Source of the DNA: a virus
Length of the DNA: 40,459 nucleotides
IMG/VR virus record: IMGVR_UViG_3300047462_000044
Coordinates: 1 to 40,459 of that record
Direction: 5' to 3' (one strand)
Positions 1,545 through 39,249 of the stretch are shown here, piece after piece. A program made the translations under genes and the position numbers. The notes under the pieces are model-generated. The model saw only the letters and a list, made by a program, of their open reading frames with translations. It did not search any database and was not told the origin of the DNA. The stretch's first letter is position 1, and every line of letters begins with the position of its first letter.

Positions 1545-1637
1545 GATAAATACAAACGCGAATCTGGCACGTTTCGCACAGCCATCTCCGGATTGTTGGG
1601 CAGTGCTGTTAAACCACCTTAACCGGTGGTTTTTCTT
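1545..1637 (+). ncRNA. candidate small RNA (motif to terminator)
   Basis: GATAAATA at 1545-1552 is a copy of the window's recurring promoter-like motif. It is followed about 58 bases later by an intrinsic terminator (1611-1637), and no ATG lies between. If the motif works like a T4 late promoter, the product would be an RNA of about 75-80 bases starting near 1558. It sits in the gap between the divergent integrase and the first rightward gene. Function is unknown; the RNA itself is inference. Confidence 0.35.
1611..1637 (+). terminator. intrinsic terminator
   Basis: AAACCACC (1611-1618) pairs perfectly with GGTGGTTT (1625-1632) around a 6-base loop, followed by TTCTTT. The T-tract is only on the + side. 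It would also stop + strand readthrough antisense to the integrase before the first rightward gene. Confidence 0.8.
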
Positions 1638-1646
1638 TATCTGAAC

Positions 1647-1654
1647 CATAAATA
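1647..1654 (+). promoter_or_regulatory. CATAAATA motif (T4-late-like)
   Basis: CATAAATA lies 15 bases after a terminator and 29 bases before the ATG at 1683. The leader contains ATCTCC (1654-1659), which can pair with GGAGAT (1673-1678), the ribosome binding site. Promoter activity is inferred from similarity to the T4 late consensus TATAAATA and from repetition through the window. Confidence 0.55.
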
Positions 1655-1682
1655 TCTCCGCCCAACAGAGAAGGAGATAGCA

Positions 1683-2015
1683 ATGACAGATTTCAAGAGC
1701 GTTAAGAAGGTAGAGATACCAAAAGCAAAACAATTCAAATATTTGCCACAGGTTAAGAAAGATTACAGACCAAGAGCCAGCTACGAATTCCTGACAAAGA
1801 AGGAAAAAGAAAGCGTTGATGGTTTTGATCTTAAAGACCTCAATTGGAACCTTGCACACGACAACGTACTAAATGTTTTATGGGTGTGTGGAATCCTTGC
1901 GGATAAGATCAAGAAATATCCAAACGCACCTGTAAGCTCCCATCACCAAGAAATTCTCGAGAAGATTGCACAGATATTCGAGGAGTGGGGCCTGATAAAC
2001 GAGAGACTGAAATGA
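1683..2015 (+). CDS. hypothetical protein (110 aa)
   Basis: I do not recognise this family. The ATG at 1683 follows AAGGAGATAGCA, a strong ribosome binding site; a GTG at 1626 lies inside the terminator and is not credible. The first 40 residues are rich in Lys and Pro, and the rest is predicted helical (NLAHDNVLNVLWVCGILADKIKKY, EILEKIAQIFEEWGLI in parts). It is the first gene of a rightward unit and its stop overlaps the next start (ATGA at 2012). It has no transmembrane segment or signal peptide. It could be an early regulatory or host-takeover protein, but nothing in the sequence fixes that. Confidence 0.75.
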   Translation: MTDFKSVKKVEIPKAKQFKYLPQVKKDYRPRASYEFLTKKEKESVDGFDLKDLNWNLAHDNVLNVLWVCGILADKIKKYPNAPVSSHHQEILEKIAQIFEEWGLINERLK

Positions 2016-2278
2016 TTCCAAAATATTTCGATGGTCGGTTCTACACAACTTGGAAACTCCCTCCACCATCAAACGTAATCATCCGACAAGAAAAACCAAA
2101 CGGACCAGTCTCATACACACGAGATGGATTCACTTGGAAATTACTTGACTCACCTCGAATGCTTGATGCTGCCCATAGCTGTGAAGGAATCAACAAGGAC
2201 TGGCTCTCAAAGGCAGTTAATGGATTCAAGATGCAGTACGTTCAGTGGCTAATTACAAAGGCTGTCTCTGTTCCCTAA
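2012..2278 (+). CDS. hypothetical protein (88 aa)
   Basis: An unrecognised protein starting at ATG 2012, which overlaps the stop of the preceding gene (ATGA) and so is probably translationally coupled to it. A GAGAGA stretch upstream may serve as the ribosome binding site. The N-terminal half is rich in Pro, Tyr and Trp (RFYTTWKLPPPSN, YTRDGFTWKLL) and looks like a small beta-rich fold; the C-terminal half looks helical. A longer start at 1985 is possible but would overlap the upstream gene by 31 bases. Confidence 0.65.
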   Translation: MIPKYFDGRFYTTWKLPPPSNVIIRQEKPNGPVSYTRDGFTWKLLDSPRMLDAAHSCEGINKDWLSKAVNGFKMQYVQWLITKAVSVP

Positions 2279-2361: not shown

Positions 2362-2377
2362 ATTTGAAAGGTGTTTT

Positions 2378-3149: not shown

Positions 3150-3539
3150 ATGGCAAAAAGAACACCTAAACAAAAAAAATGGACAGAGGATTGGAATGAT
3201 AGACACCCTCAACACGTACGTTTGCATTCAATCAAGACGAGAGCAAAAAGGAAGGGATTGGAATTTAATCTAACACCATCGGACATTGTCATACCTGATG
3301 TATGTCCAGTGTTAGGGATTCCAATCATTCAAGGGCAGAGTGTTTCAAATGATAACTCTCCATCTATCGACAGAATTGATAACACTAAAGGATACGTGAG
3401 GGGGAACATTCGAATCATTTCAGACAGGGCAAATAAACTGAAGAGTGATGGAGCGTTGGAAGAGATCGTAGCAATAGCTGTCTATATGGCTACCCACTTA
3501 GCAAACACAAAGGAAGAGCCTCAAGGGGTTCATCCATAA
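3150..3539 (+). CDS. HNH-like nuclease, DRID/GYVxGN type
   Basis: A 129-residue putative homing-type endonuclease. Its core reads CPVLGIPI (52-59), then SIDRID (72-77), GYVRGNI (81-87) and the tail SDRANKLKSD (91-100). The same signature occurs in the products at 14654 and 24587, so the three are paralogues. This resembles phage HNH-family proteins in which D-x-I-D and N replace the classic DH...N arrangement; the usual general-base His is not obvious and an Arg (R75) occupies that place. The N-terminus is basic (KRTPKQKKW) and could bind DNA. It lies 5 bases after the preceding gene, and its stop overlaps the next CATAAATA motif. It may be a mobile gene in its own right. Confidence 0.75.
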   Translation: MAKRTPKQKKWTEDWNDRHPQHVRLHSIKTRAKRKGLEFNLTPSDIVIPDVCPVLGIPIIQGQSVSNDNSPSIDRIDNTKGYVRGNIRIISDRANKLKSDGALEEIVAIAVYMATHLANTKEEPQGVHP

Positions 3540-3542
3540 ATA
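3535..3542 (+). promoter_or_regulatory. CATAAATA motif (T4-late-like)
   Basis: The motif overlaps the stop codon of the HNH-like gene and lies 26 bases before ATG 3568. In the leader, TTGCC (3545-3549) can pair with GGCAA (3561-3565), placing the AGGAGG ribosome binding site in or next to the hairpin. Confidence 0.55.
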
Positions 3543-4871: not shown

Positions 4872-5047
4872 CATAAATAGATTCAGAGGGGCGATTGCTC
4901 CGACCGTCTGGCCACGGTGTCTTGATGAGAATAACAACAAGAATAAACGACCAAGAACGAACGTCTCCTAAGGCTCGTTCATGTGCTTCGTACAGGAAAT
5001 AAGAACTCATCCTTCTGGCCAGCCTGTACGAAGCTTTCGTTTATTTT
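4872..5047 (+). ncRNA. candidate structured RNA, about 165 nt
   Basis: This 201-base gap between genes begins with CATAAATA (4872-4879) and ends with a 12-bp hairpin followed by a T-rich tail. Between them lie further hairpins: GGGGC/GCTCC (4888-4892, 4897-4901), ACCGT/ACGGT (4903-4907, 4914-4918) and GAACGA/TCGTTC (4955-4960, 4975-4980). The loop of the second (CTGGCC, 4908-4913) is complementary to GGCCAG in the loop of the last (5017-5022), allowing a loop-loop contact. No credible ORF lies inside. It could be a small RNA or a structured leader of the HNH gene at 5057. Confidence 0.45.
4985..5047 (+). terminator. 12-bp hairpin with T-rich tail
   Basis: GCTTCGTACAGG (4985-4996) is perfectly complementary to CCTGTACGAAGC (5023-5034) with a 26-base loop; TTTCGTTTATTTT follows. 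The long loop is unusual for an intrinsic terminator, so regulated termination is possible. The HNH start codon is only 10 bases further on. Confidence 0.6.
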
Positions 5048-5668: not shown

Positions 5669-8260
5669 ATGTTCACATTCTTCTCAACAATGGAATCAAC
5701 GAAGCCAAGTGCAAGAGATTGGACTTGGATGGACTTCGTTAATGATGTCATGTCTGGGCACAAGATCGTGCCACCAGAAACGAAGCCTTATTGCTGGCAC
5801 TTCAATGCGTCAACTTACAAGAAAGGTGGAAGACGTGTTGGGTCTGATATCGAGACAGTCAATGCAATCATTCTAGACTTTGATGACTACGTAGAGTGGC
5901 AGACAACGATTGCTGCTTTCGCTGCGTTCAGGAAGCTTGAGTTCGTCGCATACACTTCGTTCAATCACCAGCGCTCAAAGGGAGAGTCAGACAGAGCACG
6001 TGATAAGTTTCGAATTGTTTTCCCATTTAAAACATCGTGTACCGTTAAAGAGTATCAAGAGATCAGTGATTACCTACTGACAGAATTCGCACCAAAGGCA
6101 GATCGTTGTTTAGGTAATCCAAATCAGATATTCACCTACGTTTACTGTGCGGAAGAGAATGCAGAGCAGGCAAACCTCTTCTACAACGAAGGAGAGTGGT
6201 TAGACTGGAGAACATTACCACGAACAGAAGCACAACCAGCATATGTTCCTGGCGTCTCTTTTAGTACACCATCAAAGGCAGATCATTACCTACCTGCGGA
6301 TCATATCTTTCAGTTAGGCAAAGGATTAATTCGGTTCGGGGATGTTAAAAGCAGAATTGGAAGAGTCTATTGCCCTCACCATCCAGATAAATCTCCTGGA
6401 TCGTTTCTCAATAAGACAAAGAACACGATCTATCACCATTGTTCAAAATGCGGGACAACGAAGATAGCGTATGAGGAACCAAAGCCAGAAGACGTAATTG
6501 AGGCGGCTGCAACAAGATCAGCTCCGCCAGTTCCAATGTCATCATCTCAAGTAGCAGCAATACAGAAAGAGATACTTGGAATTAGCGAAGATGATCCTGT
6601 AGAGCCATTCTCAAGAGAGCGTCGAGTTAAGTTGATTGAAAGACGCTGCATGACTGGCCTTCACGAAATAATGCTCCTCCAAGCATTCGAAGGGTTTGGA
6701 AAAAGCTATTACGCTGTATTGGAAGCTCGTCGTGGAAACAAAGTACTGTTCGCAAGCTCTTCTAATGAACAAGCTGCAGAACAGGCAAGCAGTTTCGAGA
6801 AGTTGGGGCTTCGTGTCCAATTGATACCTGGACGTGAATACCTTCTTCGAACTCTATACAAGGTGGAAGTTCAAAAGTCAGAAGAAACACATCCTTGGGA
6901 TTTAGAGCGGTTAAGTGAGTCTAAAACAAAAAAGTGGATTATGACGCACTTAAAGAAAACGGTAGAAGAAGCAGAGAAGATCTGGCTTCATTGCACACCA
7001 CCACAGGCAGACTTTGTAAATTACGATATTGTCTGTACAACGATTGCACGAACACAAAGCTTTGGAAAGATTCAAAGGGCACGTGCATCGTTAATGTTGG
7101 GGCGTGGTGTTTATCTCAAAGATGAAGAGAGGCACTTACCAAAAGATTGCATTGTGTTCTTCGATGATCCAGAGAAAACATACTTCACAAAATACGCACC
7201 ATATGATGAGAAGTACATTAAGCGCCAACAAGAGAAGAAGCGTAAGAAGATTGCAAAGAGTGAAGATGGTCAGTCCGAACTTGAACAACTCCAAGAAATC
7301 CCAACCACTAATAAGGCACGGTTAGTTATTGATGGAGTGTCAGTTAAAGAAACGACGATCAATGGAACACATTACTTCATTCGTCCAGATTCGTTAAAAT
7401 TGGGATATGGTCTCTTTGATGCACGATTAGTCTTCACAACAACAGAGCTGATAACAACATATCTGATTAAGGATATGTACCCAAAGATTTATCACCCAAA
7501 GTTAATGCCAGATCAAAAGATGTTGGCAGGTGAGATTACGATGATTAAATCTAATCTCGCCGGCGCAAAGAGAGATGCATTCCTACGACCAATTCTTGCA
7601 CGATTAAAAAAGGAAGGGTTTGAGTGTGAGTTGATTGCGGATGGGATAGGTGCGAAATACAACCTACTTAATTCCAAAGGGCAGAATCAGCTTGCGGAAT
7701 CAACAACTGTAATCAAGTTATCAGAACCACATTTTGAAGAGGTTAAGAAATACATTGATGAGCTAAACTGGGATCCAAGTGATGCATACCAGATGAAGTT
7801 AGCGTTGGCTCTTGATAAGTTGCAGCAGGCGATTGGTAGGAATAGTGGATATCGTTGGTCAGATCGTGAAGGGAAGCAGAGAAAGTGTTGCTATGTCGTG
7901 TGCGAACCACGACTACACGATGACCTTTTGAAAGCGATGAGATACCACGTGGAGACAATCGTATTACAGCCGTCCAAAGAGGTAGGTAGTAAGAAGGACT
8001 ATCAGAACTTAAGGGACGGTCTGTGTTGGTTTATAGCTCACCTGGACCGCTACCTGATGATGGAAGATACAAGTAAGAGGGGAGAGGGTAGAGATATGTT
8101 TTGGAGCGATATACAGACTTGCTTCGAAGAGACTCAGACGTTAAAGAGGGTGATATTCAAGAGGAGGTTGTTAGAAGCGATTAAGACCAAAATCGAAAAA
8201 ACCAAAGAGATCGCCCTATCAAATGCCCTCCAAAAACGTCTTCAGAAATTAGGGGAATGA
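5669..8260 (+). CDS. AEP primase, zinc ribbon and SF2 helicase fusion
   Basis: An 863-residue multidomain protein, most likely the replication initiator. Residues about 20-200 read as an archaeo-eukaryotic-type primase: hydrophobic strand plus DFDD near 70-74 (metal-binding), AYTSFNHQ and DKFRIVFPF near 112-120, then a TYVYC strand. Residues about 235-265 form a zinc ribbon (CPHH...HHCSKCG), as in primases. From about 330 there is an SF2 helicase: motif I AFEGFGKS (339-346, AxxGxGKS form), a DD pair in FFDDPE at 499-500 as motif II, and motif VI QAIGRNSGYR (720-729). Motif II has DDPE rather than DEAD. No separate polymerase, DnaB-type helicase or loader is visible, so host replisome use is likely. 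The ATG abuts the HNH stop; GGGGGAAG inside that gene can serve as its ribosome binding site. Confidence 0.8.
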   Translation: MFTFFSTMESTKPSARDWTWMDFVNDVMSGHKIVPPETKPYCWHFNASTYKKGGRRVGSDIETVNAIILDFDDYVEWQTTIAAFAAFRKLEFVAYTSFNHQRSKGESDRARDKFRIVFPFKTSCTVKEYQEISDYLLTEFAPKADRCLGNPNQIFTYVYCAEENAEQANLFYNEGEWLDWRTLPRTEAQPAYVPGVSFSTPSKADHYLPADHIFQLGKGLIRFGDVKSRIGRVYCPHHPDKSPGSFLNKTKNTIYHHCSKCGTTKIAYEEPKPEDVIEAAATRSAPPVPMSSSQVAAIQKEILGISEDDPVEPFSRERRVKLIERRCMTGLHEIMLLQAFEGFGKSYYAVLEARRGNKVLFASSSNEQAAEQASSFEKLGLRVQLIPGREYLLRTLYKVEVQKSEETHPWDLERLSESKTKKWIMTHLKKTVEEAEKIWLHCTPPQADFVNYDIVCTTIARTQSFGKIQRARASLMLGRGVYLKDEERHLPKDCIVFFDDPEKTYFTKYAPYDEKYIKRQQEKKRKKIAKSEDGQSELEQLQEIPTTNKARLVIDGVSVKETTINGTHYFIRPDSLKLGYGLFDARLVFTTTELITTYLIKDMYPKIYHPKLMPDQKMLAGEITMIKSNLAGAKRDAFLRPILARLKKEGFECELIADGIGAKYNLLNSKGQNQLAESTTVIKLSEPHFEEVKKYIDELNWDPSDAYQMKLALALDKLQQAIGRNSGYRWSDREGKQRKCCYVVCEPRLHDDLLKAMRYHVETIVLQPSKEVGSKKDYQNLRDGLCWFIAHLDRYLMMEDTSKRGEGRDMFWSDIQTCFEETQTLKRVIFKRRLLEAIKTKIEKTKEIALSNALQKRLQKLGE

Positions 8261-8466: not shown

Positions 8467-8796
8467 ATGAAACTAATTCAAATCTCAGCCTTCTACAAGA
8501 ACGATCACCCTAATGGAATCGGAATTACCCTAACAGAGGAATTTGGCGACCTCGACCAATTCCTCGAAATCATCCAAACCTCCTATAAGGCGATGTGGCA
8601 GGAGTCCGAACAGAACTCGGAACTACCCACGTTGATTTTAGAACTCCGTGGACAATTGATCTCCCTCGGTTTAAAGAAGGGTGATATTGGAATCCACGCT
8701 GGCTCAATCGTAATCGGTAATGTTTGGCTGTTGGAATCTCACGGACAGATGATTACGGATGAGTTCAACGGTCTCCAACTTGCCTATGTTGAGTAA
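8467..8796 (+). CDS. hypothetical protein (109 aa)
   Basis: An unrecognised, acidic alpha/beta protein (MKLIQISAFYKND..., EFGDLDQFLEIIQTSYKAMW, IHAGSIVIGNVWLLES). The ATG at 8467 is directly preceded by CGAGGA, which is closer than normal; TTG 8422 or 8431 are the alternatives in this frame, and a stop at 8419-8421 limits the extension. The 206 bases before it hold no gene; they are AT-rich and include TTTTATTATATATAAAG, which may carry a conventional promoter. The gene stands alone before a TATAAATA motif, and may be an accessory gene. Confidence 0.6.
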   Translation: MKLIQISAFYKNDHPNGIGITLTEEFGDLDQFLEIIQTSYKAMWQESEQNSELPTLILELRGQLISLGLKKGDIGIHAGSIVIGNVWLLESHGQMITDEFNGLQLAYVE

Positions 8797-8835: not shown

Positions 8836-8843
8836 TATAAATA
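8836..8843 (+). promoter_or_regulatory. TATAAATA motif (exact T4 late consensus)
   Basis: TATAAATAG lies 34 bases before ATG 8877 and is followed by gatttagcccacaac and an AAGGAG ribosome binding site, nearly the same leader as at 2906-2944. It should drive the two-gene unit 8877-9415. Confidence 0.6.
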
Positions 8844-9415: not shown

Positions 9416-9443
9416 GCACCTACCACCTCTTCCGAATCTAACT

Positions 9444-9465
9444 ACCGGCTTTATGCCGGTTTTTT
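9444..9465 (+). terminator. intrinsic terminator
   Basis: ACCGGC (9444-9449) pairs with GCCGGT (9455-9460) around a 5-base loop, with a T6 tract. It ends the 8877-9415 unit. Confidence 0.85.
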
Positions 9466-10001
9466 AGTTTTATGTTTTTAGATTTCTGTTTCTATGACCC
9501 CAAATAAGGTGCGTTGTTTCCCAAAATTCCCCAAAAGACAACAGTTTTTTGAATTATTTTTCAATTATTTTCCGCCATTCAGCCCGCCAATAGGCGAATT
9601 TGCGAAATATTTTGAAATATTTTGACCTACAAAACCCTAATTTCTTCAACTGTTGCCAAAAACAATAGGGTGATAGTCGGATTTACAGTTCTTACACAGT
9701 TTTAAAAAGACAACATCTACTTTTTGAACTGTCTTGAACTGTATTTGCAGAAATCTCGCCGACTGTTTTCGTACTGCGTGGAAAATTTAAGTGCATTTTT
9801 CTGCAGTCAAATGTCTTGATCTGTTTATTCAGACTAAACATCACCTTAATTAATTCAAATCGTTCTCACTGCACTCCTACATTCCACACGATTAGACAAC
9901 AGTTTGTTCCTGATCGGGAAATTTCCATATGACCCTAATGTTTAATGTTGTCCTTTAGGTTCATGAAGACGATTGTGTCCCTAACAGTTAAGGAGACACA
10001 A
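9466..10001. other. non-coding control region / candidate origin
   Basis: No gene is visible in this stretch of more than 500 bases. It contains an AT-rich part (about 9545-9625) with the tandem 10-mer GAAATATTTT twice (9604-9613, 9614-9623) and two AATTATTTT copies. AGACAACAGTTT occurs at 9536-9547 and 9894-9905, with AGACAACA at 9708-9715. CTTGAACTGT and related AACTGT/ACAGTT words cluster at about 9685-9745. GCAGAAAT (9747-9754) and ATTTTTCTGC (9795-9804) recur in both att arms. Direct repeats beside an AT-rich segment fit a replication origin; scattered inverted words fit regulator sites. Neither is proven. No copy of the CATAAATA motif was seen here. Confidence 0.5.
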
Positions 10002-10187
10002 ATGATGAACACTGAACTGAAAGAGTTAATAACACTAATCAAGGCTAACAAGTCCAAGCCTGTCCAAAGTGTTGTCGACTCTTACTTCGGCTCAATCGTT
10101 TGGTCTGCCTTGAAAGATGAATACGAAAGCCTGACACCTGCTGAAAAGCAATCCTTGATAACCAAACTGACCAACGAGAGAAAGTAA
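10002..10187 (+). CDS. hypothetical protein (61 aa)
   Basis: A small acidic and helical protein starting at ATG 10002 after AAGGAGACACA; a second in-frame ATG at 10005 is equally possible, while the upstream starts at 9945 and 9963 lack a good site. Residues TELKELITLIKANK and SLTPAEKQSLITKLTNE look like two helices. Its stop overlaps the next start (TAATG at 10187). It is the first gene after the non-coding region. Function unknown. Confidence 0.65.
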   Translation: MMNTELKELITLIKANKSKPVQSVVDSYFGSIVWSALKDEYESLTPAEKQSLITKLTNERK

Positions 10188-10837
10188 TGAAAAGCAAAGG
10201 TAATAGGTTCGAACGTGGTTCGGGTGTTTACAAGTGCACCTGTTGTGGACGGAACACTCGTTCTACTGGTCGCGGTGATAACGAGAACGTTCAATTGTGT
10301 AGTGAGTGCTACGAACTTGCTGGTCACGATAACGAACTGACTGATACAGGAGAGACATCCAAAGAAACTGTTCGTGCCTATTTTGAAAAGCTGACATCTC
10401 ACGGTATTGACCCAACGATTCTGTTTCCTAACCTCCAAACCTACATTGAAACCAAAGAGAGTACTAACATGACGACTTCCACACTAACCAAAGAGACTAT
10501 CGACAAGATGAGCCGGAAGGACCTTCGCCTCACAGCAAAGGTGGCTGGTATCAAGTACGGCAAGCTTTCGGTTATGCAAATCCGAGAAGCCTTATTGAAT
10601 GCACCTGATGTTGTAACGGAGAAGCCGACGAAGAGTGCTAAGAAGAAGATTGCTACCAAGAAAGAAACCAAGGTTCGTAAGGAGCGTACTGGTACAAAGA
10701 TGGAAGCGGCGATGGAGATCATGCAGGAGAATGATGGTAAGTCTCGCAAAGAGATCATTGCTCTGTTCATGTCTAAAGCCAAGCTTACAAAGGCTGGTGC
10801 TGCTACCTACTACGCACTCTGCAAGAAGAAGATGTAA
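10187..10837 (+). CDS. zinc-ribbon, basic DNA-binding-type protein
   Basis: A 216-residue protein in three parts. Residues 17-41 form a zinc ribbon (C17-x2-C20 ... C38-x2-C41). Residues about 100-140 (LTKETIDKMSRKDLRLTAKVAG, then LSVMQIREALLN) resemble a SAP/LEM-like helical DNA-binding unit. After a Lys-rich linker, residues about 170-216 (AAMEIMQEN, SRKEIIALFMSKAKLT, GAATYYALCKKK) form a helical domain of a type I associate with small phage DNA-binding proteins. It lies directly before the packaging region, behind a terminator. A role in transcription control of late genes is attractive but unproven; no sigma-factor region is evident. Confidence 0.65.
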   Translation: MKSKGNRFERGSGVYKCTCCGRNTRSTGRGDNENVQLCSECYELAGHDNELTDTGETSKETVRAYFEKLTSHGIDPTILFPNLQTYIETKESTNMTTSTLTKETIDKMSRKDLRLTAKVAGIKYGKLSVMQIREALLNAPDVVTEKPTKSAKKKIATKKETKVRKERTGTKMEAAMEIMQENDGKSRKEIIALFMSKAKLTKAGAATYYALCKKKM

Positions 10838-11075: not shown

Positions 11076-11082
11076 CTAAATA
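11076..11082 (+). promoter_or_regulatory. CTAAATA variant motif
   Basis: ACTAAATAG is a one-base variant of the recurring motif, four bases before ATG 11087. It includes the same flanking AG as several other copies. GAGG just upstream of the ATG is too close to be a good ribosome binding site, so translation could be leaderless or depend on a longer transcript. Confidence 0.35.
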
Positions 11083-11773: not shown

Positions 11774-13127
11774 TTCAGATTTTTCAATACTGGAACTAAC
11801 AAAAAGACGTTTCGGATATGAGGCAAATGCTATTGATGCTTACCTTGATACTCTTACACGTGATGAGTGCCTAACGCTTCTCTACGACTGGGAGTTCAAA
11901 GGACGTCCGAGCCAGCAATTACCTCCTGGTGATTGGTATACGTGGCTAATTCGTTCAGGTCGTGGTTGGGGAAAGACAGAAACAGGCTCTAACTGCTGCC
12001 ACATATGGGCTAAAGAAGACAAGGACGAGAGAATTCTACTCGTTGGAAAAGACTCTGACGAAATTAAAACCGCAATGATTGAAGGTCCGTCAGGAATCTT
12101 CGCGACTGCTCATCCAGACTTCACTCCTATGTGGGTTGATAAGAAACGTCTAATCCTAAGGTGGCCTAATGGGGCATTGGCGTTTGGTATTTCTGCCGAA
12201 GTCCCCGAAGACATCCGATCATTTAACGTAGGAAAGATTTGGTGGGACGAACCATTCAAATGTAAGCATCAAGAGGCAGTAGAAGAGCAGCTTGGGTTCG
12301 TTCTTCGTATTGGTAAGAAACCTCAACGTGTCCTTACTTCAACTCCACGTGCAACCAAGCTGTGTAAGAAGCTTACAAAGGACCCATCTACTGTTGTAAC
12401 AAATGGAGCAACATTTCAGAACTATGCATTGAGTGAAGTTGCTCTGCAAAAGATGAAAGATGCTTATGAAGGAACTCGTTTAGGTCAGCAAGAGCTCTAC
12501 GGTGAAGACATTGATGAGAATCCAAACGCACTATGGAAGTTTGTAGACATCGTAAGGAACCGCAAAGAGCCAACATACATTGACGATACTGGTATCGAAC
12601 ACTCTTTACTTGAAGAGATGGATAGGATTGTTGTGGCAATTGATCCACCTAAGACTGCTAACGAGAACAGTGATGAGTGTGGAATTGTTGTAGCAGGCAA
12701 GAAGGGGAATGATGGCTATGTGTTTGAAGATGCAAGCAAGATAGCAACACCTAAGCAATGGGCAACGTTGGCAATTGATCTATTCAAAAAATACAAGGCA
12801 GATCGAATCGTTGCGGAGGTTAATAATGGTGGCTTGATGGTTGAAGAGACACTTCGCAACGTCAATCCAAATATTCCGTACAAGCAAGTGACAGCAACGA
12901 GAGGTAAGGCAATTCGTGCAGAACCTATTGCAACTCTCTATGAACAAGGACGTATTCATCACGTAGGCATTCTTGGAAAGCTTGAAAACCAGTTAATTGA
13001 CTTCGACCCCTCGATGGTTTCAACAAAGAAGGCAGTAGATGACCGACTTGATGCGTGTGTTTGGGCGTTGACAGAACTGTTTGGTGAGGCAATTAAAGTC
13101 CCTCGCATTATTAATCTCAATGGATAA
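11766..13127 (+). CDS. terL: large terminase subunit
   Basis: A 453-residue DNA-packaging motor with ATPase and nuclease domains. Walker A is RSGRGWGKT (63-71), Walker B is KIWWDEP with Asp161-Glu162, and STPR near 190 is the coupling-type motif. The nuclease domain carries Asp293 (VAIDPPK), AEVNNGG near 348 and DDRLDACVWAL (425-435). The length matches HK97-like phage terminases. It works at the portal vertex and cuts concatemers. Its TAA stop (13125-13127) lies inside a GATAAATA motif that precedes the portal gene. Confidence 0.95.
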   Translation: MDDSDFSILELTKRRFGYEANAIDAYLDTLTRDECLTLLYDWEFKGRPSQQLPPGDWYTWLIRSGRGWGKTETGSNCCHIWAKEDKDERILLVGKDSDEIKTAMIEGPSGIFATAHPDFTPMWVDKKRLILRWPNGALAFGISAEVPEDIRSFNVGKIWWDEPFKCKHQEAVEEQLGFVLRIGKKPQRVLTSTPRATKLCKKLTKDPSTVVTNGATFQNYALSEVALQKMKDAYEGTRLGQQELYGEDIDENPNALWKFVDIVRNRKEPTYIDDTGIEHSLLEEMDRIVVAIDPPKTANENSDECGIVVAGKKGNDGYVFEDASKIATPKQWATLAIDLFKKYKADRIVAEVNNGGLMVEETLRNVNPNIPYKQVTATRGKAIRAEPIATLYEQGRIHHVGILGKLENQLIDFDPSMVSTKKAVDDRLDACVWALTELFGEAIKVPRIINLNG

Positions 13128-13130
13128 ATA
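13123..13130 (+). promoter_or_regulatory. GATAAATA motif (T4-late-like)
   Basis: The motif overlaps the terminase stop codon and lies 33 bases before the portal ATG at 13163. The portal leader has a weak AAGGA ribosome binding site. Confidence 0.5.
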
Positions 13131-14640: not shown

Positions 14641-14648
14641 CATAAATA
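14641..14648 (+). promoter_or_regulatory. CATAAATA motif (T4-late-like)
   Basis: CATAAATAG ends only 6 bases before ATG 14654, and no ribosome binding site lies between. If transcription starts about 6 bases past the motif, as in T4, the HNH messenger would be leaderless. Confidence 0.5.
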
Positions 14649-14653
14649 GCACC

Positions 14654-15157
14654 ATGACTACAAAAGAACAGAGGCGCGTCTACTCGGAAAACTGGCGCAA
14701 AAAAAATAAGGAAAAGGTAAACGAATACCAACGTGAACGCTATGAGTCGTTAGGAGATAACAATCCACGCTGGAATAAAAGAAATCCAGAAGCGTTTAGC
14801 GAATGGAGTCGCAAATGGCGTATCGCAAATCCAGTGCGCCATTTGTATCAAGGAATAAAAGCAAGGGCAAAGCGAAACGGAATACCGTTTGACGTTACAG
14901 AAGAAGATTTGGTTATCCCATCTCATTGCCCAGTAACAGGAGTGAAATTAGAACATAGCCGTATGGAGGGTGGCAGACACAGACAAGCAGATAATTCACC
15001 TTCCTTTGACCGCATAAACCCAGCGCTCGGATACGTAAAGGGAAATGTTATCTGTGTTTCATGGCGAGTGAACAATATCAAATCAGACGCAACTCCTGAG
15101 GAGCTAATAAATATCGGGAACTACTATCAAGGATTAGTAAATGGCAAAGAAAAATAA
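14654..15157 (+). CDS. HNH-like endonuclease between portal and protease
   Basis: A 167-residue homing-type nuclease inserted between two head genes. Residues 1-60 are basic helices (YSENWRKKNKEKVNEYQRER, RKWRIANP). The core has CPVTGVKL (92-99), SFDRINPALGYVKGN (117-131) and SWRVNNIKSDATPEEL (136-151), matching the paralogues at 3150 and 24587. An Arg (R120) takes the usual HNH His place. I chose ATG 14654; a GTG at 14621 would run through the motif. The gene ends 17 bases inside the protease gene and carries its own upstream motif, and an AATAAATA copy near its 3' end sits before the protease start. This arrangement keeps the head genes expressed. Confidence 0.8.
   Translation: MTTKEQRRVYSENWRKKNKEKVNEYQRERYESLGDNNPRWNKRNPEAFSEWSRKWRIANPVRHLYQGIKARAKRNGIPFDVTEEDLVIPSHCPVTGVKLEHSRMEGGRHRQADNSPSFDRINPALGYVKGNVICVSWRVNNIKSDATPEELINIGNYYQGLVNGKEK
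15106..15113 (+). promoter_or_regulatory. AATAAATA motif inside HNH gene end
   Basis: The motif lies in the 3' end of the HNH gene, 28 bases before the protease ATG at 15141, the same spacing as at intergenic copies. It could give the protease its own promoter. Confidence 0.4.
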
Positions 15158-15839
15158 AGAGACATTCCTAACGCTTAAAGCAGTTGGTGATGATGGAACT
15201 ATTGAAGGTTATGGAAGTACATTCGGTGGATTACCAGATGCATATGGTGATGTTGTTCAGAAGGGAGCCTTCTCAAAGACCCTGCAAGATCGTGGCACGA
15301 AGGTAAAGATGCTATGGCAACACCGAAGTGATAGTCCTATCGGTGTGTGGGATTCCATGCAGGAAGACAGTCATGGATTAAAGATGACTGGTCGTCTGCT
15401 TCTTTCAATTCAACAAGGAAGAGAAGCCTATGAGCTTCTTAAAGCCGGCGCAATCTCCGGTTTAAGCATTGGATACATTCCTGTTCAGCAGGATTACGAC
15501 TCGAAAACCGGTATCAATACCATCAAAGAAGTGAAGCTTCTGGAAACAAGCGTCGTTACATTTCCGGCTAATACTTCGGCAACAATTACAGCAGTCAAGT
15601 CTGCGTTTGAAGAACTTGACGAAGAAAATAGAATAAAAGTTATCCACTTTATAAATAACCTCAAGCAATCGCCACTTGATAACAACGAACAGCCGCCAAC
15701 AGTAGAGGCATCTACTGGAAACACTGTAGAAGATACCAAGCCGGTAGAGCAGAAAGACAACAAGCCGCAGGATGAAGAACTGCACTTGCTGGAACAGCTA
15801 CTCGAATCCTTAAAACAAAGAAACAAAGGGATTCGATAA
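15141..15839 (+). CDS. HK97-family prohead protease
   Basis: A 232-residue serine protease that trims the capsid scaffold domain during head maturation. Catalytic His61 (LWQHRSD) and Ser109 (SGLSIGY) are visible with the spacing of HK97 gp4-type proteases, and GYGSTFGGLPDAYGDVVQKG at 23-42 is a standard family block. The last 60 residues (after about 170) are Gln/Glu/Pro-rich and probably act as scaffold or linker. It overlaps the HNH gene by 17 bases. It is followed after 25 bases by the capsid gene. TATAAATA at 15651-15658 lies inside the gene and has no start codon near by. Confidence 0.93.
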   Translation: MAKKNKETFLTLKAVGDDGTIEGYGSTFGGLPDAYGDVVQKGAFSKTLQDRGTKVKMLWQHRSDSPIGVWDSMQEDSHGLKMTGRLLLSIQQGREAYELLKAGAISGLSIGYIPVQQDYDSKTGINTIKEVKLLETSVVTFPANTSATITAVKSAFEELDEENRIKVIHFINNLKQSPLDNNEQPPTVEASTGNTVEDTKPVEQKDNKPQDEELHLLEQLLESLKQRNKGIR

Positions 15840-17150: not shown

Positions 17151-17158
17151 TATAAATA
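17151..17158 (+). promoter_or_regulatory. TATAAATA motif (exact T4 late consensus)
   Basis: TATAAATAC ends 6 bases before ATG 17164 with no ribosome binding site in between, predicting a leaderless messenger if it is a promoter. It restarts transcription after the capsid terminator. Confidence 0.55.
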
Positions 17159-19353: not shown

Positions 19354-19361
19354 CATAAATA
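19354..19361 (+). promoter_or_regulatory. CATAAATA motif (T4-late-like)
   Basis: CATAAATAA lies 36 bases before the tail tube ATG at 19397. The leader carries TAGGGAGTT as ribosome binding site. Confidence 0.55.
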
Positions 19362-20320: not shown

Positions 20321-20328
20321 CATAAATA
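20321..20328 (+). promoter_or_regulatory. CATAAATA motif (T4-late-like)
   Basis: CATAAATAC lies 34 bases before ATG 20362 and directly touches the hairpin that starts at 20329. A transcript starting about 6 bases after it would begin inside the hairpin. Confidence 0.55.
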
Positions 20329-20772: not shown

Positions 20773-21134
20773 TCGGTGCAATCAGAAACAAAGTCAATCT
20801 TGATACACCAGGACCGGATGGTGCAAGTCAAAGAGATCACTTGTTAGGGGCAGTGCGAGCATCGGGTGGAAAGCTTCAACCTCCTGAACTCAATCTTCCT
20901 TGCGAACCTCCTGGCTGCTTCTTATGGCTGTGGATGATTTTTACGTCCTTGAACTACAGCCGTCAATACACAACGAATGCCATTCCTATTGCATTTACCA
21001 ATCAGGAAATCCTTGCGTGGTCTACTTTGAATGATGAAAAACTCTCGAAGCAAGAGTTAGCACTATTACGCCAAATGGACGTTGAGTGGATAAATACCAG
21101 AATACAACTTCAACGTGAGATGAATAATGGCTGA
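20751..21134 (+). CDS. T-like extension made by -1 frameshift
   Basis: The -1 frame is open from the slippery site to TGA at 21132-21134 and adds 127 residues (QGCIELLIGAIRNKV..., then ...CFLWLWMIFTSLNYSRQY and the helix SKQELALLRQMDVEWINTRIQ). There is no good independent start (only TTG 20841), which supports expression as the GT fusion. The T part should bind the tail tube protein while G coats the tape measure. Its end overlaps the tape measure start by 8 bases and contains a GATAAATA motif (21089-21096). Confidence 0.85.
   Translation, partial: QGCIELLIGAIRNKVNLDTPGPDGASQRDHLLGAVRASGGKLQPPELNLPCEPPGCFLWLWMIFTSLNYSRQYTTNAIPIAFTNQEILAWSTLNDEKLSKQELALLRQMDVEWINTRIQLQREMNNG
21089..21096 (+). 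promoter_or_regulatory. GATAAATA motif inside T frame
   Basis: The motif lies in coding DNA but 31 bases before the tape measure ATG at 21127, the spacing seen at intergenic copies. It may be a separate promoter for the tape measure gene, or chance. Confidence 0.35.
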
Positions 21135-23595
21135 TTCGATTTTAGAACTGATTTTTTCTGCGGACACGAAAGAGCTCGATGAAGCCAAGGAGAAGCTATC
21201 AGAGCTTGGTGAGCATATGCCTACTGTTGGTGAGGGCATTGAGAAGTTAGCACAATCGTTTAAAAATCTACCGGGTCCTATTGGTTTAGCAGCCGCAGCC
21301 GCAGTTGGATTCGCTCTCGGCTTGAAAGAAATGGTTGAAGGCACCCTTGAGGCAGAGACACAGCTTCTTGAATTATCAGAAGCGATGGGTGTTCCTATTG
21401 AAAAGGCACAGCCATTTATCGAAGCAATGGCGCTCTCGGGTATTTCAGGCGACAAACTAACAGCCTCTATGTCTAAGCTTGCACAGGCTGTCGGTCAAGC
21501 AATCACAGAACCAACAGGCAAGGCAGCAGACGCGTTCAAAAAACTTGGCATCTCCCAGGACGAACTAAAGAACGGCGACACAGAACAGATTATGAAGGAT
21601 GCCGCTGCTGGGCTTGACAAGTATGCCGACAGCGCATCAAAGACAGCCGCGATTCGTGAATTGTTTGGTAAGCAAGGTCCAGCAATTATAGCTGCTATGA
21701 AGTCTGAAGCCGAAATGGAAGAGAAGGCAAAACAGGCTCAAGCAGATTACGGAACTGCGGTATCAGAAGCGGACGCGAAATCAGCAAAGTATTTCGGCGA
21801 GACATTAAAGCTTGGTATGACTATGTTCGAAGGCGTAGCGATGTCTGTTACGAAATCCCTTCTTCCTGGCCTTCAAGTACTCGTAGATCAGTTCGCAGAG
21901 TCAGGTAAGCAAGGAGGAATCATGCGTGATGTCCTTGATGGATTGTCTGCAACTATTTCTGTAGTCTCAAAAGCAATCATAACTTTACTTGTTGAACCAA
22001 TACGCTTTGCAGCGGAATGGTTTAAGGAAGCCGGTGTTGCAATTGGTGCGTCAATGGCTGCAATCGCAGCCGCAGCACATGGGCATTTTGGTGAAGCAAA
22101 AGAAATCATGGTTCAAATGAATCAGGACCTAAACGCAATGGCTGCACAGTACGGAGAAGCAACTGTCAAGTTTGAGAAGGCGTTATGGGCCGGCAAGGAA
22201 GCTGTAGATACATGGGGTGAAGGTGTAGAAGAAGCAAAGCCGAAACTGGCCGCCTTTGATGCAAATGCTATCAAGGTAACTGACACCCTACAAAAATTAG
22301 CAGTTGAGTTGATCGGACAGACAGATGCATGGCGAGCAGCTGGTCAAGGACTTGAAGCATATAAACAAGCACAAGACAATGCCGCTATTGCAGCTAAGCG
22401 TTTAGAAATTGCAAAAGAGAATGGAAGTAAGCAAGCCCAAGACGAAGCAGAAGCACTTATGCGTGCAGCCAATGCAGCAAAGCAAGCAGCAACAGAAGAA
22501 GTAGCCGGTTGGAATCTAATCAATGGGCTTATAGAAGAACAAAATGCACTTGTGTCTCACAATACCGAACTTGAAAAAGCAAGAATGGAAATTGCCAAGA
22601 ATCCAGGAATGACCGAAGTAGAGAAGGCAGCATTGTTAGCACTTGCACAAAATGTTGATATGAAGAAACAGCAGTTGGAAGTCGATAAAGAGGTGCTTGC
22701 ACTAAATCAGATGGTTACCAAAAGCATTGACCAAGAAAAGGCATCAATGACTTTAAGTACCAATGCGTTGAAATTGTATAACGAGCAGTTGAAATTAAAA
22801 CAACAATACGAAAAGGATATGCAAGATAAGTCTGTTGATGAACAGAATAAGCTTACAGCGGCTTACAAAGCAGCAGACACAGCTCTCGTTAAAAATAATC
22901 AAGACACACTTGCATGGCAGCAATCAATGGCTGGCTTTACTGCAGGTGCCGGACAAGCGCTAACTAACTTATACGATCAATCAAAAAATCTAAATCAGAT
23001 CGGTGGCCAGTTAGTCACTACATTTGCAAACAATCTTGCTACCGCCTTTGAGAACATTGGTAAGAAAGGAACCAACTCTTTCGAACAGATGGGTATTGCG
23101 ATGGTTCAGTTCATTGAACAGACAATCGTAAAGATGGCGCTTATGAAAGCAATGATTACAGCTATTGATATGTTGCCAGGTGGTGCAGCATTCTTGCAAT
23201 CCATGAGTGCAGCAAACATGTTGAAGTCCGCAAATGGTAATGCGTTTTCAGGCGGATCGGTTATTCCTTTTGCCAATGGCGGCGTTATTGACGGACCTAC
23301 GATTGCGCCAATGGCATTGATGGGAGAAGCAGGACCAGAAGCAATCATGCCTTTACAGCGTGGAGCTGATGGCAAGCTTGGAGTTCATATGTCAGGTGCA
23401 AACGCCGGTGGCGGTATAGGCATCACAAACCACAATGCGACATTCGTAATCAACTCTAATCAGAATCCAAAGGACATTGCGAAGCAGACAAAGAAACAAG
23501 TAGCAACAATGGCGAAGTTCTCAAAGGGAAGCATTGCGAAGCAGCAGCGTCCAGGTGGATTACTAAATAACAGAAATCAAGCATTCGCAAGGTAA
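21127..23595 (+). CDS. tail tape measure protein
   Basis: An 822-residue tape measure that sets tail length and passes into the host during DNA entry. It is mostly helical with long Ala/Gln/Glu/Lys stretches, hydrophobic Ala-Gly segments near 50-65 (IGLAAAAAVGFALGL) and 295-320, and a C-terminal block FSGGSVIPFANGGVIDGP...LMGEAGPEAIMP typical of lambda-type gpH. By the usual rule of about 1.5 angstrom per residue the tail would be roughly 120 nm, depending on processing. It follows the G/T genes and is followed 9 bases later by the M-like gene, with AAGGAG between. Confidence 0.92.
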   Translation: MADSILELIFSADTKELDEAKEKLSELGEHMPTVGEGIEKLAQSFKNLPGPIGLAAAAAVGFALGLKEMVEGTLEAETQLLELSEAMGVPIEKAQPFIEAMALSGISGDKLTASMSKLAQAVGQAITEPTGKAADAFKKLGISQDELKNGDTEQIMKDAAAGLDKYADSASKTAAIRELFGKQGPAIIAAMKSEAEMEEKAKQAQADYGTAVSEADAKSAKYFGETLKLGMTMFEGVAMSVTKSLLPGLQVLVDQFAESGKQGGIMRDVLDGLSATISVVSKAIITLLVEPIRFAAEWFKEAGVAIGASMAAIAAAAHGHFGEAKEIMVQMNQDLNAMAAQYGEATVKFEKALWAGKEAVDTWGEGVEEAKPKLAAFDANAIKVTDTLQKLAVELIGQTDAWRAAGQGLEAYKQAQDNAAIAAKRLEIAKENGSKQAQDEAEALMRAANAAKQAATEEVAGWNLINGLIEEQNALVSHNTELEKARMEIAKNPGMTEVEKAALLALAQNVDMKKQQLEVDKEVLALNQMVTKSIDQEKASMTLSTNALKLYNEQLKLKQQYEKDMQDKSVDEQNKLTAAYKAADTALVKNNQDTLAWQQSMAGFTAGAGQALTNLYDQSKNLNQIGGQLVTTFANNLATAFENIGKKGTNSFEQMGIAMVQFIEQTIVKMALMKAMITAIDMLPGGAAFLQSMSAANMLKSANGNAFSGGSVIPFANGGVIDGPTIAPMALMGEAGPEAIMPLQRGADGKLGVHMSGANAGGGIGITNHNATFVINSNQNPKDIAKQTKKQVATMAKFSKGSIAKQQRPGGLLNNRNQAFAR

Positions 23596-24560: not shown

Positions 24561-24568
24561 CATAAATA
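24561..24568 (+). promoter_or_regulatory. CATAAATA motif before HNH gene
   Basis: CATAAATAC lies 19 bases before ATG 24587. CTCC just after it (24569-24572) can pair with the GGAG of the ribosome binding site (24577-24580). A 7-bp hairpin (ATTGTTC/GGACAAT, 24537-24558) precedes it. Confidence 0.5.
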
Positions 24569-24586: not shown

Positions 24587-25084
24587 ATGATTGATGTCGA
24601 AGAAAAAAAGAAGAAAGCTAGAGCAATATCTCAACAATGGCGCAAGGCAAATCTTGAGAGAGTGCGCCAGAAAAATAAAGAATGGTGGATTGCAAATAGA
24701 GACGAATGTATTGAGAAGCGAAAACAATATGATCGTAAAAATCGGGACTCTATTGAAAGCAAAAGAAAGGAACGCCGATTACTTAATCCTCTACACACAA
24801 AATATATTGCAATCAAAGCAGGTGCAAAGCAACGGGGAATACCTTTTGCCATTAAGGAAGAAGAACTTCCACATATACCAAGTGTGTGTCCAATATTAGG
24901 TATACCACTGGAGATATTCAGTAAAGATAAATGCAAGCAAATATCACTCGATCGGTTCGATAACTCGAAAGGCTATGTTCCAGGGAACGTTATATGGATT
25001 AGCCATAGAGCGAATGCATTAAAGAACGATGCAACATTAGAAGAATTAGAACAAGTCCTTAAATACATGAAAGGACAGTTATGA
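24587..25084 (+). CDS. HNH-like endonuclease between gpL and gpK
   Basis: A 165-residue homing-type nuclease inserted in the tail-tip operon. The N-terminal 65 residues are basic helices (ISQQWRKANLERVRQKNKEW, KRKQYDRKNRDS). The core CPILGIPLEI (101-110), ISLDRFDNSKGYVPGN (119-134) and SHRANALKNDATLEEL (139-154) is the signature shared with 3150 and 14654. Arg123 stands in the usual HNH His place. It has its own upstream motif and GGGAGG ribosome binding site, and its stop overlaps the gpK-like start (ATGA at 25081), so it fills the junction exactly. Confidence 0.82.
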   Translation: MIDVEEKKKKARAISQQWRKANLERVRQKNKEWWIANRDECIEKRKQYDRKNRDSIESKRKERRLLNPLHTKYIAIKAGAKQRGIPFAIKEEELPHIPSVCPILGIPLEIFSKDKCKQISLDRFDNSKGYVPGNVIWISHRANALKNDATLEELEQVLKYMKGQL

Positions 25085-25821
25085 CCGATGAATGGAAGCA
25101 AGCGTTTCGTGAACACGTACTTAGGGAATATCCAAACGAAGCAGCAGGATTAAAAATAAACAACACATACTATGCGTGCACTAATATACATCCAGACCCA
25201 TTACATTACTTTCGCATTGATGGTCTTGAACGACTTGAACTAACGTTGAAGCATGGTCCAGTTGAAGCCGTATTGCATTCTCATCCATACGAGCTAAAGA
25301 CAAGTAAGCAATTCGTAATACAGAAATACAACCCCGCGTGGCCATCAGTAGGCGATCAAGCCGCGTTTATGGCTGACGATGTGGATTGGTATATCGTTGC
25401 AACAGACGGAGAAGGATTGTCTGCGATCAATGTGCTTACCCACGAGCCTCAGCCTCTTGAACGCCGAAGCTTCGCCTGGTTCACCTCAGACTGTTATGCG
25501 ACATGCCGAGATTGGCACGCACTGAATACAGGGATTCTCCTTCCGAACTTCACAAGGGAATGGGGCTTCTGGGAAAGAAACATAAATACGATTGAAGATA
25601 ACATGGCAACTTTAACGAATGCAGACAAGGTTCCAACAGAGAAGGCACAGATTGGAGATTTAGCGGTTATGTCTTTGGGTGGCGCTAAGGTGGTTAATCA
25701 CCTGGGCGTACTTTCAGGTAATAACGAATTTACTCACCAATTTATTGAACGCTATTGCATTGTTGATCGTTGGGATAAGTGGAAGCACAAAGCAAAGTAC
25801 ATGATTAGGTTTGCAAAATGA
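25081..25821 (+). CDS. tail tip protein, gpK-like (JAMM + NlpC/P60)
   Basis: A 246-residue counterpart of lambda gpK with two enzyme-like domains. Residues 1-130 form a JAMM/MPN domain: Glu20, His66-x-His68 (HSHP) and Ser89...Asp92 (PSVGD) give the metal site. Residues about 134-246 form an NlpC/P60-type cysteine peptidase with Cys138 (TSDCYATCRDW) and a His near 207 (NHLGVL). It probably cuts peptidoglycan during DNA entry or processes tail proteins. A CATAAATA copy (25581-25588) lies inside, 15 bases before an in-frame ATG (25603). It overlaps both neighbours by ATGA. Confidence 0.9.
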   Translation: MTDEWKQAFREHVLREYPNEAAGLKINNTYYACTNIHPDPLHYFRIDGLERLELTLKHGPVEAVLHSHPYELKTSKQFVIQKYNPAWPSVGDQAAFMADDVDWYIVATDGEGLSAINVLTHEPQPLERRSFAWFTSDCYATCRDWHALNTGILLPNFTREWGFWERNINTIEDNMATLTNADKVPTEKAQIGDLAVMSLGGAKVVNHLGVLSGNNEFTHQFIERYCIVDRWDKWKHKAKYMIRFAK

Positions 25822-30588: not shown

Positions 30589-30596
30589 CATAAATA
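30589..30596 (+). promoter_or_regulatory. CATAAATA motif (T4-late-like)
   Basis: CATAAATAG lies 23 bases before ATG 30619. CTCC (30598-30601) can pair with GGAG (30609-30612) of the ribosome binding site. Confidence 0.55.
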
Positions 30597-37053: not shown

Positions 37054-37060
37054 GTAAGTT

Positions 37061-37068
37061 GATAAATA
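37061..37068 (+). promoter_or_regulatory. GATAAATA motif (T4-late-like)
   Basis: GATAAATAA lies 26 bases before ATG 37094 in a 40-base gap, with AAGGAATTGCAGA as leader. Confidence 0.5.
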
Positions 37069-37093
37069 AGAAGAACAACTAAGGAATTGCAGA

Positions 37094-39226
37094 ATGACGA
37101 TACAAACATCACTGACATATGGAGGATCAGTCTTAACCTGTGGCGGTGCTGTACTCGTTATTTACACATCTGGTAGTTCTCCATCTATTACTTCGAGCTC
37201 ATTGCCATCAGGAACAAGTGGCACTGCTTATTCCTACACAATGACTGAATCGGGTGGAACAAGTCCTTTTACCTGGGCTATTACATCTGGAACATTACCA
37301 AGCGGATTATCATTCTCATCTTCTGGTGTATTCAGTGGAACACCAACGACAACAGGCACAACGTCTCTTACAATTCAGATTACCGACGCAGCATCACTAA
37401 CAGCATCTGCGTCGTATAGTTTAGTCATTGGTTCTTCTGGCACAGTTACGATTACTACAAGTTCATTGGCATCAGGAGTCAATGGACGTGCATATTCACA
37501 AACATTGGCAGCAACAGGTGGCACAAGTCCTTATACGTGGGCAGTGACATCTGGAACATTGCCAACAGGAATCTCACTATCGTCAGGTGGCGTGTTCAGT
37601 GGAACGCCAAGCGTATCTACAACAGCAAGCCTAACTATCCAAGCAACAGACTCTGCATCTAATACTGCAACACATTCATATAGCTTGGTAATCAATCCTG
37701 CGCTATCAATCACCACATCTTCGTTGCCAGCAGGAACAAACGGAACTGCATATTCAGCAACAATGGGAGCAACAGGCGGAACATCTCCTTACACTTGGGC
37801 AATTACTTCAGGAACATTGCCAACAGGTATGTCGTTCTCAAGTTCGGGTGTCTTCAGCGGCACACCATCTGTAACAACAACAGTTAGCCTAACGATTCAA
37901 GCAACCGATGCAGCTTCATACACTGCATCTACCACATTGTCATTGGTAATTAATGCAGCATCTGGAAACTTGATTCTTTATTCAGGAACAGTGGGAGCAA
38001 TCTACAACACAACAATCTGGCCACCTGGAAATGATTACAGCAGTGGTGTCACATACAACAACACAACGAACTTACAGTCTGGACACTCATACAATCTTGC
38101 AATCACTGGTTCGTATCAGTACATCCAACAAGCAACTAACTGGCCAACTATTCAGGATGGGGGAACGAATGGATACAACCTATCTCCATACACAAAGTTG
38201 CAGTTTGACTGCTACCCAACAGGTGGCGTTGCATTAAATGGAGGTGTATTCCACTACCAGCGTACAGCAGGTAATGACATTGCAGTTTCAACGAATGTCC
38301 AGTCAGGTGCAATGGTAACGATTACTGGACTAACGCTTACACAGAATGCTTGGAACTATGGCGTTACATTGCCATTGGTCTACTTCGGTGGTTTATCACA
38401 ATACAACTACTACAAACTCTTGGTTCAGATTACGACTGGTGGAACGATGTTGATGGATAACGTTCAGTTCGTCCCAGGCAATGTTGGTTGGATATACCGT
38501 GGCAACTCGAGCCTTGAAAGTGGTTGGGTGGAATCTTCAACAAACCTAACAACGAACTACTCAGCATTGGTCAATAATCTGCTATCAGGTGGAACATCTA
38601 CTTCACCTAACAACAGCGGTACATTTGCACTCAATGCTTCACCAAGCCCTGCAACAAACTTCACTGGTTCAATCAGCGGAACAACTCTAACTGTTTCTGC
38701 CGTAGCGTCTGGAACTATCGCAATTGGTCAAACAGTTCTCTGTGATTCAATAACAAGCCCATCTACTTGCCGTATTGTTTCGGGTTCTGGCTCCACTTGG
38801 ACATTGAGTTCAAGCCAAACCGCTGCATCTCAAACAATGACATCTTGCGTACAGCCATATGATGTCTGCTCAATGCAGTTGAATACAACAGCAGTGAATG
38901 CAATCTGGAGAGCAAACTACAGTGCTGGCTTCAGTATTTCTCCTTACACAAACTTCGCATTTGGTGCCATTGCAACAAAAAGTGGATATGGATATCAAGT
39001 CCAATTCTACAACACTTCAGGAACTGCAATCGGAAGCGCAGTTACGATGACAACTCCGAGCGATCAGGGTGTCTACAGTGGAACGACAGGAAGTTGGGCA
39101 GTCTATAACGCAACATTGAGTTCATTTGGATTGGGTGTTTCGACCATTGGCGGCGTTTCAATCAAAGATATGAGTTCTAACACGACAAATACTATCTACA
39201 TCTCAGCGTTGGGATTCTGGTCCTAA
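37094..39226 (+). CDS. adhesin with three Ig-like repeats
   Basis: A 710-residue receptor-binding or carbohydrate-binding protein. Three Ig-like (He_PIG-type) repeats of about 85 residues occupy roughly 33-287; each runs from ITxSSLxxG, through SGGTSPFTWAITSGTLPSGL-like centres, to FSGTPxxxxTxSLTIQxTD. From about 295 (LILYSGTVGAIYNTTIWPPG) to 470 a jelly-roll-like domain resembles carbohydrate-binding modules, and 480-710 (SLESGWVESSTNLTTNYSAL...) looks like a second, related one. This is the last structural gene and the most likely host-range determinant. Confidence 0.8.
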   Translation: MTIQTSLTYGGSVLTCGGAVLVIYTSGSSPSITSSSLPSGTSGTAYSYTMTESGGTSPFTWAITSGTLPSGLSFSSSGVFSGTPTTTGTTSLTIQITDAASLTASASYSLVIGSSGTVTITTSSLASGVNGRAYSQTLAATGGTSPYTWAVTSGTLPTGISLSSGGVFSGTPSVSTTASLTIQATDSASNTATHSYSLVINPALSITTSSLPAGTNGTAYSATMGATGGTSPYTWAITSGTLPTGMSFSSSGVFSGTPSVTTTVSLTIQATDAASYTASTTLSLVINAASGNLILYSGTVGAIYNTTIWPPGNDYSSGVTYNNTTNLQSGHSYNLAITGSYQYIQQATNWPTIQDGGTNGYNLSPYTKLQFDCYPTGGVALNGGVFHYQRTAGNDIAVSTNVQSGAMVTITGLTLTQNAWNYGVTLPLVYFGGLSQYNYYKLLVQITTGGTMLMDNVQFVPGNVGWIYRGNSSLESGWVESSTNLTTNYSALVNNLLSGGTSTSPNNSGTFALNASPSPATNFTGSISGTTLTVSAVASGTIAIGQTVLCDSITSPSTCRIVSGSGSTWTLSSSQTAASQTMTSCVQPYDVCSMQLNTTAVNAIWRANYSAGFSISPYTNFAFGAIATKSGYGYQVQFYNTSGTAIGSAVTMTTPSDQGVYSGTTGSWAVYNATLSSFGLGVSTIGGVSIKDMSSNTTNTIYISALGFWS

Positions 39227-39249
39227 AAGACCAAAAAGGAATAAATATT

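Follow-up and report, generated by a model that had tools for sequence, protein, structure and literature searches.

The window analyzed here, a single virus record of 40,459 bases, raises the question of why a phage with lambda/HK97 gene content should carry, before most of its genes, a short motif resembling the late promoter of phage T4, and what would read it. A first-pass annotation had proposed a T4-late-like promoter, with a host sigma factor, an unknown phage protein or a start-associated repeat as its possible basis.

Prophage and gene content

The sequence TTGCTGTAGAT occurs just twice in the window, at its two ends, and the sequence outside both copies is GC-rich. The left flank codes for a protein C-terminus, and this peptide is 53% identical to a TPM-domain protein from a Pseudomonadota genome. 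Together, the att cores at both ends, the GC-rich ends and the TPM-domain flank indicate a whole prophage of a high-GC proteobacterial host.

116-126, + strand: attL core TTGCTGTAGAT, falling on the stop codon of a TPM-domain gene of the host
319-1467, - strand: tyrosine integrase, likely start ATG at 1422 (phrog_1, 5.7e-47; PF00589, 2.8e-24)
40360-40370, + strand: attR core TTGCTGTAGAT, before the start of a host lipoprotein-like gene

Genes for a terminase, portal, head protease, HK97-type capsid, tape measure and J-like tail protein are read rightward, and the only genes assigned to the - strand are that of the integrase and one for a small membrane protein (39648-39893). By gene content alone (J-like tail protein, tape measure and HK97-type capsid), the phage would be placed in the lambda/HK97 type. 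Despite integration, no CI/Cro-like repressor was recognized among the early-region proteins scanned.

Five IMG/VR contigs were found to belong to the same family, with capsid identities to the window of 90% (L011), 49-50% (L016), 51% (L175), 44% (L176/L271) and 37% (L177/L283, whose portal is 47% identical). Within the family, the window alone extends over the left arm. Other searches gave little: megablast of the window against phages returned no match, scans with the portal and the terminase as single proteins found no relatives, and that with the integrase found one 29% relative only.

A number of other features were noted in these genomes. The window holds several EndoVII/HNH-like genes (3150-3539, 14654-15157 and 24587-25084), and L011 has one at 1279-1788; some lie directly behind the motif, and they also match, with lower scores, the Srd/sigma70-decoy families of T4-like phages. 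The element GCCCA(A)CA(A) lies shortly before the ribosome site in the leaders of 2945, 8877, 1683, the integrase (on the other strand) and L016 1716. A long non-coding stretch free of the motif (9416-10004; L011 1-677) precedes the unit at 10005-10837 and is a candidate origin or early control region.

Copies of the motif

A recount of ATAAATA in the window gave 19 copies on the + strand and none on the - strand, in agreement with the first-pass annotation, whose positions were also right except at 15651, where the 8-mer begins at 15650 and the core at 15651. Its figure of fifteen copies in gaps or on a stop codon likewise stands, as thirteen fall entirely between genes and two share bases with a stop codon. 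The base before the core is C in ten copies, G in four, T in three (8837, 15651 and 17152) and A in two, so that the minority first base given for two copies is in fact found in three. From the end of the core to the next start the distance is mostly 18-35 nt, in keeping with the 19-36 bases annotated; the two copies placed at 6 lie 5 nt from the core end, a further one lies 2 nt away, and four lie at 130-229 nt. CTAAATA is considered a member variant; at 11076 it is conserved in three phages as CTAAATAG[A/T]GGATG. The copies and variants, all on the + strand, are as follows.

1546-1552, +: ATAAATA copy, 130 nt before start 1683; terminator-like hairpin downstream
1648-1654, +: CATAAATA, ahead of start 1683 and just after a terminator; the interval from motif to +1 holds the anti-SD arm TCTCC
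2907-2913, +: CATAAATA, before start 2945
3536-3542, +: CATAAATA, at the stop codon that ends gene 3150-3539; start 3568 follows
4873-4879, +: CATAAATA, 177 nt before start 5057 (HNH-like), which is followed by the replication protein 5669-8260
8837-8843, +: TATAAATA, before start 8877; GTAAATA at the matching place in L016
11076-11082, +: CTAAATA variant, with start 11087 lying 4 nt downstream; L011 and L016 conserve it
13124-13130, +: GATAAATA, at the stop codon of the terminase gene and ahead of portal 13163; L011, L016 and L175 conserve it
14642-14648, +: CATAAATA; ATG of 14654 (HNH/EndoVII-like gene) exactly on the predicted +1
15107-15113, +: AATAAATA, before protease 15141; conserved in five of five relatives
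15651-15657, +: TATAAATA, within the protease gene and 207 nt ahead of capsid 15865; read as the codons ATA-AAT, unchanged across six phages
17152-17158, +: TATAAATA, behind a terminator; the predicted +1 coincides with the ATG of 17164; site in six of six phages
19355-19361, +: CATAAATA, before tail gene 19397
20322-20328, +: CATAAATA, before 20362; a CCTCCAAG/CTTGGAGG hairpin would hide the SD in read-through RNA, as at L177 6463
21090-21096, +: GATAAATA, ahead of tape measure 21127; L177 has it too
23563-23569, +: CTAAATA, probable variant copy, before start 23605
24562-24568, +: CATAAATA, predicted SD-masking hairpin, before HNH/EndoVII-like gene 24587
25582-25588, +: CATAAATA, inside gene 25081-25821
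30590-30596, +: CATAAATA, predicted SD-masking hairpin, before 30619
37062-37068, +: GATAAATA, before 37094
39241-39247, +: AATAAATA, 2 nt before start 39250

Dinucleotide shuffling of the window gave a mean of 5.9 copies over both strands, with a largest value of 14. A codon-preserving shuffle, in which synonymous codons were permuted inside genes and gaps were dinucleotide-shuffled, gave 2.5 +/- 1.5 copies on the + strand (maximum 8 in 1000 shuffles) against the 19 observed, and 3.6 on the - strand against none. The annotation had named this shuffle as a check on its reading, and the motif proved enriched at gene starts, with 15 copies at 40 nt or less upstream of a start where 0.85 were expected (maximum 4).

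Around the copy at 1546, a terminator-like hairpin lies ~60 nt downstream (1558-1640), so that an RNA of ~80 nt may be made. The best predicted duplex of this putative RNA among the phage translation starts is with the leader of gene 1683 (shuffle p = 0.016); the integrase leader ranks fifth (p = 0.08).

Conservation within the family

The annotation had also suggested looking for the motif in related phages. The five relatives carry a further 29 copies at matching gene boundaries, against ~2.4 expected from dinucleotide shuffling. Every one of these lies on the coding strand, with no copy opposite; the six phages together thus have 48 copies against 0. The motif is kept while the GC content of the family climbs from 43 to 51%. 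As a control, 299 other proteobacterial HK97-type loci (4.83 Mb), fetched by capsid, portal or terminase similarity, were counted and held 152 copies of ATAAATA on one strand and 153 on the other. Given this lack of bias, the motif marks this six-phage family and not HK97-type phages generally, and chance or codon bias as its source is ruled out by the codon-preserving shuffle and the control loci. Two further groups were considered as carriers of the motif and dropped: alphaproteobacterial prophages with terminases 36-43% identical (18 copies vs 15) and large phages of Rhizobium and Stenotrophomonas whose J-like tail protein is similar showed no bias.

Syntenic sites occur before the portal, the protease and the small post-capsid gene in the relatives covering those places, at capsid identities down to 37%. 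The post-capsid place has, in six of six phages, a terminator-like hairpin with a T run, followed within ~10 nt by the motif. The copy in the protease gene, ~200 nt ahead of the capsid gene, reads ATA-AAT in all six phages while the neighboring codons vary. ATA makes up 4-10% of isoleucine codons in these phages and AAT 30-55% of asparagine codons, and an invariant pair with the rare ATA amid varying neighbors argues for selection on the nucleic acid and not on the protein.

Promoter-like signature

In a column profile of the 48 aligned sites no -35 element was found. Besides the C before the core (29 of 48 sites), the strongest column lies 6 nt past the core (A in 36 and a purine in 42 of 48). 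This base is a purine at 18 of the 19 window copies (permutation p = 0.0006) and at 24 of 29 copies in the relatives (A in 23 of 29). A preference for A specifically gives p = 0.10 in the window alone when the maximum over 30 columns is taken, and is significant in the pooled set, where p values are optimistic because homologous sites are not independent. The late box of T4 is numbered -13 to -6 and works without a -35 element (PMC2988020). With the present box numbered as in T4, the base 6 nt after the core becomes +1, and a purine is found at the equivalent base in 14 of 18 T4 sites of the form TATAAATA (from 66-113 kb). The ATGs of genes 14654 and 17164, as well as that of the 17164 homolog in L011 (8295), fall on the predicted +1, and leaderless mRNAs are predicted for these genes. 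Several copies directly follow terminators.

These observations suggest that the motif is likely a promoter with T4-late geometry. The SAS repeats and stoperators of mycobacteriophages are likewise short, one-orientation motifs in small gaps, and the annotation had offered them as an alternative. A role other than that of a promoter, whether in RNA processing, as a repeat tied to gene starts or as a repressor site resembling a stoperator, would fit the single orientation (19 vs 0) and the placement in gaps, and the fact that no repressor was identified in this temperate phage leaves room for one that binds the motif. Unlike SAS repeats, however, the copies lie at no fixed position immediately before starts (2-229 nt), and one conserved copy is intragenic; this reading also leaves the conserved +1 purine, the ATGs upon it and the copies directly after terminators without explanation. 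The SAS/stoperator alternative is accordingly disfavored, and we regard a non-promoter role in general as very unlikely.

Predicted masking of ribosome sites

At four window copies (1648, 20322, 24562 and 30590) a CTCC-type arm complementary to the Shine-Dalgarno sequence (SD) of the next gene lies within the 6 nt from box to +1, and the same is seen at L016 9273, L176 3954 and L177 6463. Owing to this position, RNA begun at +1 would lose the arm and read-through RNA would retain it. Swapping arms among 31 sites gave p = 0.0016, and shuffling spacers gave p = 0.005 over 17 sites and p = 0.016 for the window alone. Masking of the SD as a general feature was considered and dropped, as it holds at a subset of sites only. 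In T4, ribosome sites are masked at the genes e, soc, 49 and I-TevI, and the late transcripts of e and I-TevI escape the mask (PMC3014915). Like T4, the present phages have endonuclease genes among those predicted to be masked (24587 and L011 1279, both EndoVII/HNH-like).

Comparison with known late systems

The resemblance to T4 late promoters (TATAAATA, or NATAAATA in cyanophages) extends to the core box at -13 to -6, with 48 copies of NATAAATA in the six phages, to the lone box without a -35 element, to a purine at the start (predicted here) ~6 nt on, to many short units, and, at some genes, to ribosome sites that would be hidden in RNA reading through from upstream. The CTAAATA variant resembles the late promoter of Aeh1, and the late promoter reported for S-PM2 has the sequence NATAAATA (PMC2984593). 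The differences are also clear. The gp55-gp33-gp45 systems belong to T4, KVP40, 44RR, Aeh1 and T4-like cyanophages, whereas here the phage integrates, has lambda/HK97 gene content and yielded neither gp55 nor gp45; C is preferred at -13, several copies would give leaderless starts, and positions -5 to -1 are A or T in 113 of 240 cases against 66 of 90 in T4. Since no gp55 or gp45 was found and this segment is not AT-rich, the motif cannot be filed as a T4 late promoter, and on sequence grounds membership of the T4-type system fails. The first-pass interpretation is partly supported: its promoter reading is strongly backed by conservation, the +1 purine, the predicted leaderless starts and the placement of terminators and hairpins.

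The mechanism of T4 late transcription has been described as confined to T4-related phages, or as clearly distinct from what other bacterial systems use (PMC2988020). In the titles and passages of the open-licence papers searched, this late promoter is named in T4-like and other large phages only. Within the present genomes, the order of head and tail genes resembles that of a lambda-type late operon, but a promoter would stand before nearly every small gene group. Phages of the lambda type have a single antiterminated late operon.

Candidates for the factor reading the box

Searches in six frames found no gp55 (phrog_234 and phrog_12791, E up to 10), as the annotation had supposed, and no sliding clamp gp45 (phrog_223); general family scans of the early-region proteins named no gp33. 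The gene for the factor has to be expressed independently of the box, which makes three rightward units that lack the motif candidates.

8467-8796, + strand: unit without the motif; 109 aa; conserved in L016, where it also lacks the motif
10005-10837, + strand: two-gene unit without the motif; 60 aa, and 216 aa with Zn-ribbon/HTH-like features; conserved and likewise without the motif in L011 and L016
39924-40199, + strand: unit without the motif; 91 aa; transposase-type HTH and coiled coil

A scan for sigma70 promoters ahead of these units scored below chance and is uninformative. The unit at 10005-10837 appears to be the best candidate source of the factor. Its larger protein (10187-10837) begins with a Zn-ribbon-like segment and ends in a small helical domain, the latter also present in large phages, some with T4-type genes and one with T4-type head genes. 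The AlphaFold model of this 216-aa protein is poor, and Foldseek returned no sigma-like match for it. The N-terminal ribbon is absent from the homologs in L011 and L016, and Delftia phage PhiW-14 and Rhizobium phages have one of a similar kind. In the AlphaFold model of the 91-aa protein, the helices fit a helix-turn-helix and a coiled coil.

The enrichment, strand bias, conservation, +1 purine with start codons upon it and hairpins at a subset are seen directly in the sequence; from them we infer promoter function in vivo, the lateness of the promoters and the nature of the reader. Most likely, the motif serves as the -10-like box of a late promoter that is not of the sigma70 kind, and its reader would be an unrecognized, probably phage-encoded factor. 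According to this model, CATAAATA (NATAAATA, variant CTAAATA) would be the sole core element, from -13 to -6, and RNA polymerase with a factor other than the housekeeping sigma would bind it without a -35 element and start RNA on the purine 6 nt downstream. Each copy would start a short transcription unit, giving about one promoter per one to three genes and not one long late operon; some copies would start leaderless mRNAs on the AUG itself. At the subset with an anti-SD arm between box and +1, read-through RNA would be poorly translated and box-started RNA translatable. The factor would most likely be phage-encoded, unlike gp55 in sequence, and made from a unit without the box. Against this stand the failure to find gp55 or gp45, the base composition of -5 to -1, and the finding that no window protein was recognized as sigma-like, the model of 10187-10837 being poor. 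Even so, we consider a T4-late-like promoter family with short units and a non-housekeeping specificity factor, most likely encoded by the phage, to be probable.

The same promoters could be read by an alternative sigma factor of the host, or by a host sigma with a phage activator, which would tie lytic growth to a host regulon. No sigma factor was recognized in the phage, and a host factor would need no phage gene; but the 299 other proteobacterial HK97-type loci give no such motif signal, and we know of no host sigma with this lone box. This reading seems unlikely to us. Less probable again is reading in trans by the gp55, gp33 and gp45 of a co-infecting T4-like phage, by which superinfection would switch the prophage on. 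Satellite P4 uses the activator of P2 in trans, a possible precedent for late promoters read by the factor of another phage. The match of box and geometry to T4-type late promoters would agree with such a helper, as would the missing gp55 and the occurrence of the 10187-10837 domain and of EndoVII-like genes in large phages, some with T4-type genes. Unlike P4, however, the prophage has a full virion gene set of its own and no helper known to us; the replication gene also lies behind a copy (4873), and the -5 to -1 segment differs from that of T4. A phage-encoded factor is favored over both a host sigma and a co-infecting phage.

The box, start geometry and masking of T4, in an integrating phage with no detectable gp55 or clamp, would point to a new phage factor, a host sigma not known for such reading or the late machinery of another phage. 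The six genomes supply 48 candidate promoters and a short list of candidate genes. Tentatively, but quite plausibly, this integrating lambda/HK97-type family may run most of its genes from T4-late-type promoters by way of a factor unrelated in sequence to gp55, in which case the logic of the T4 late promoter (a lone box, short units and unmasking by choice of start point) would have arisen, or been acquired, outside the T4 lineage.
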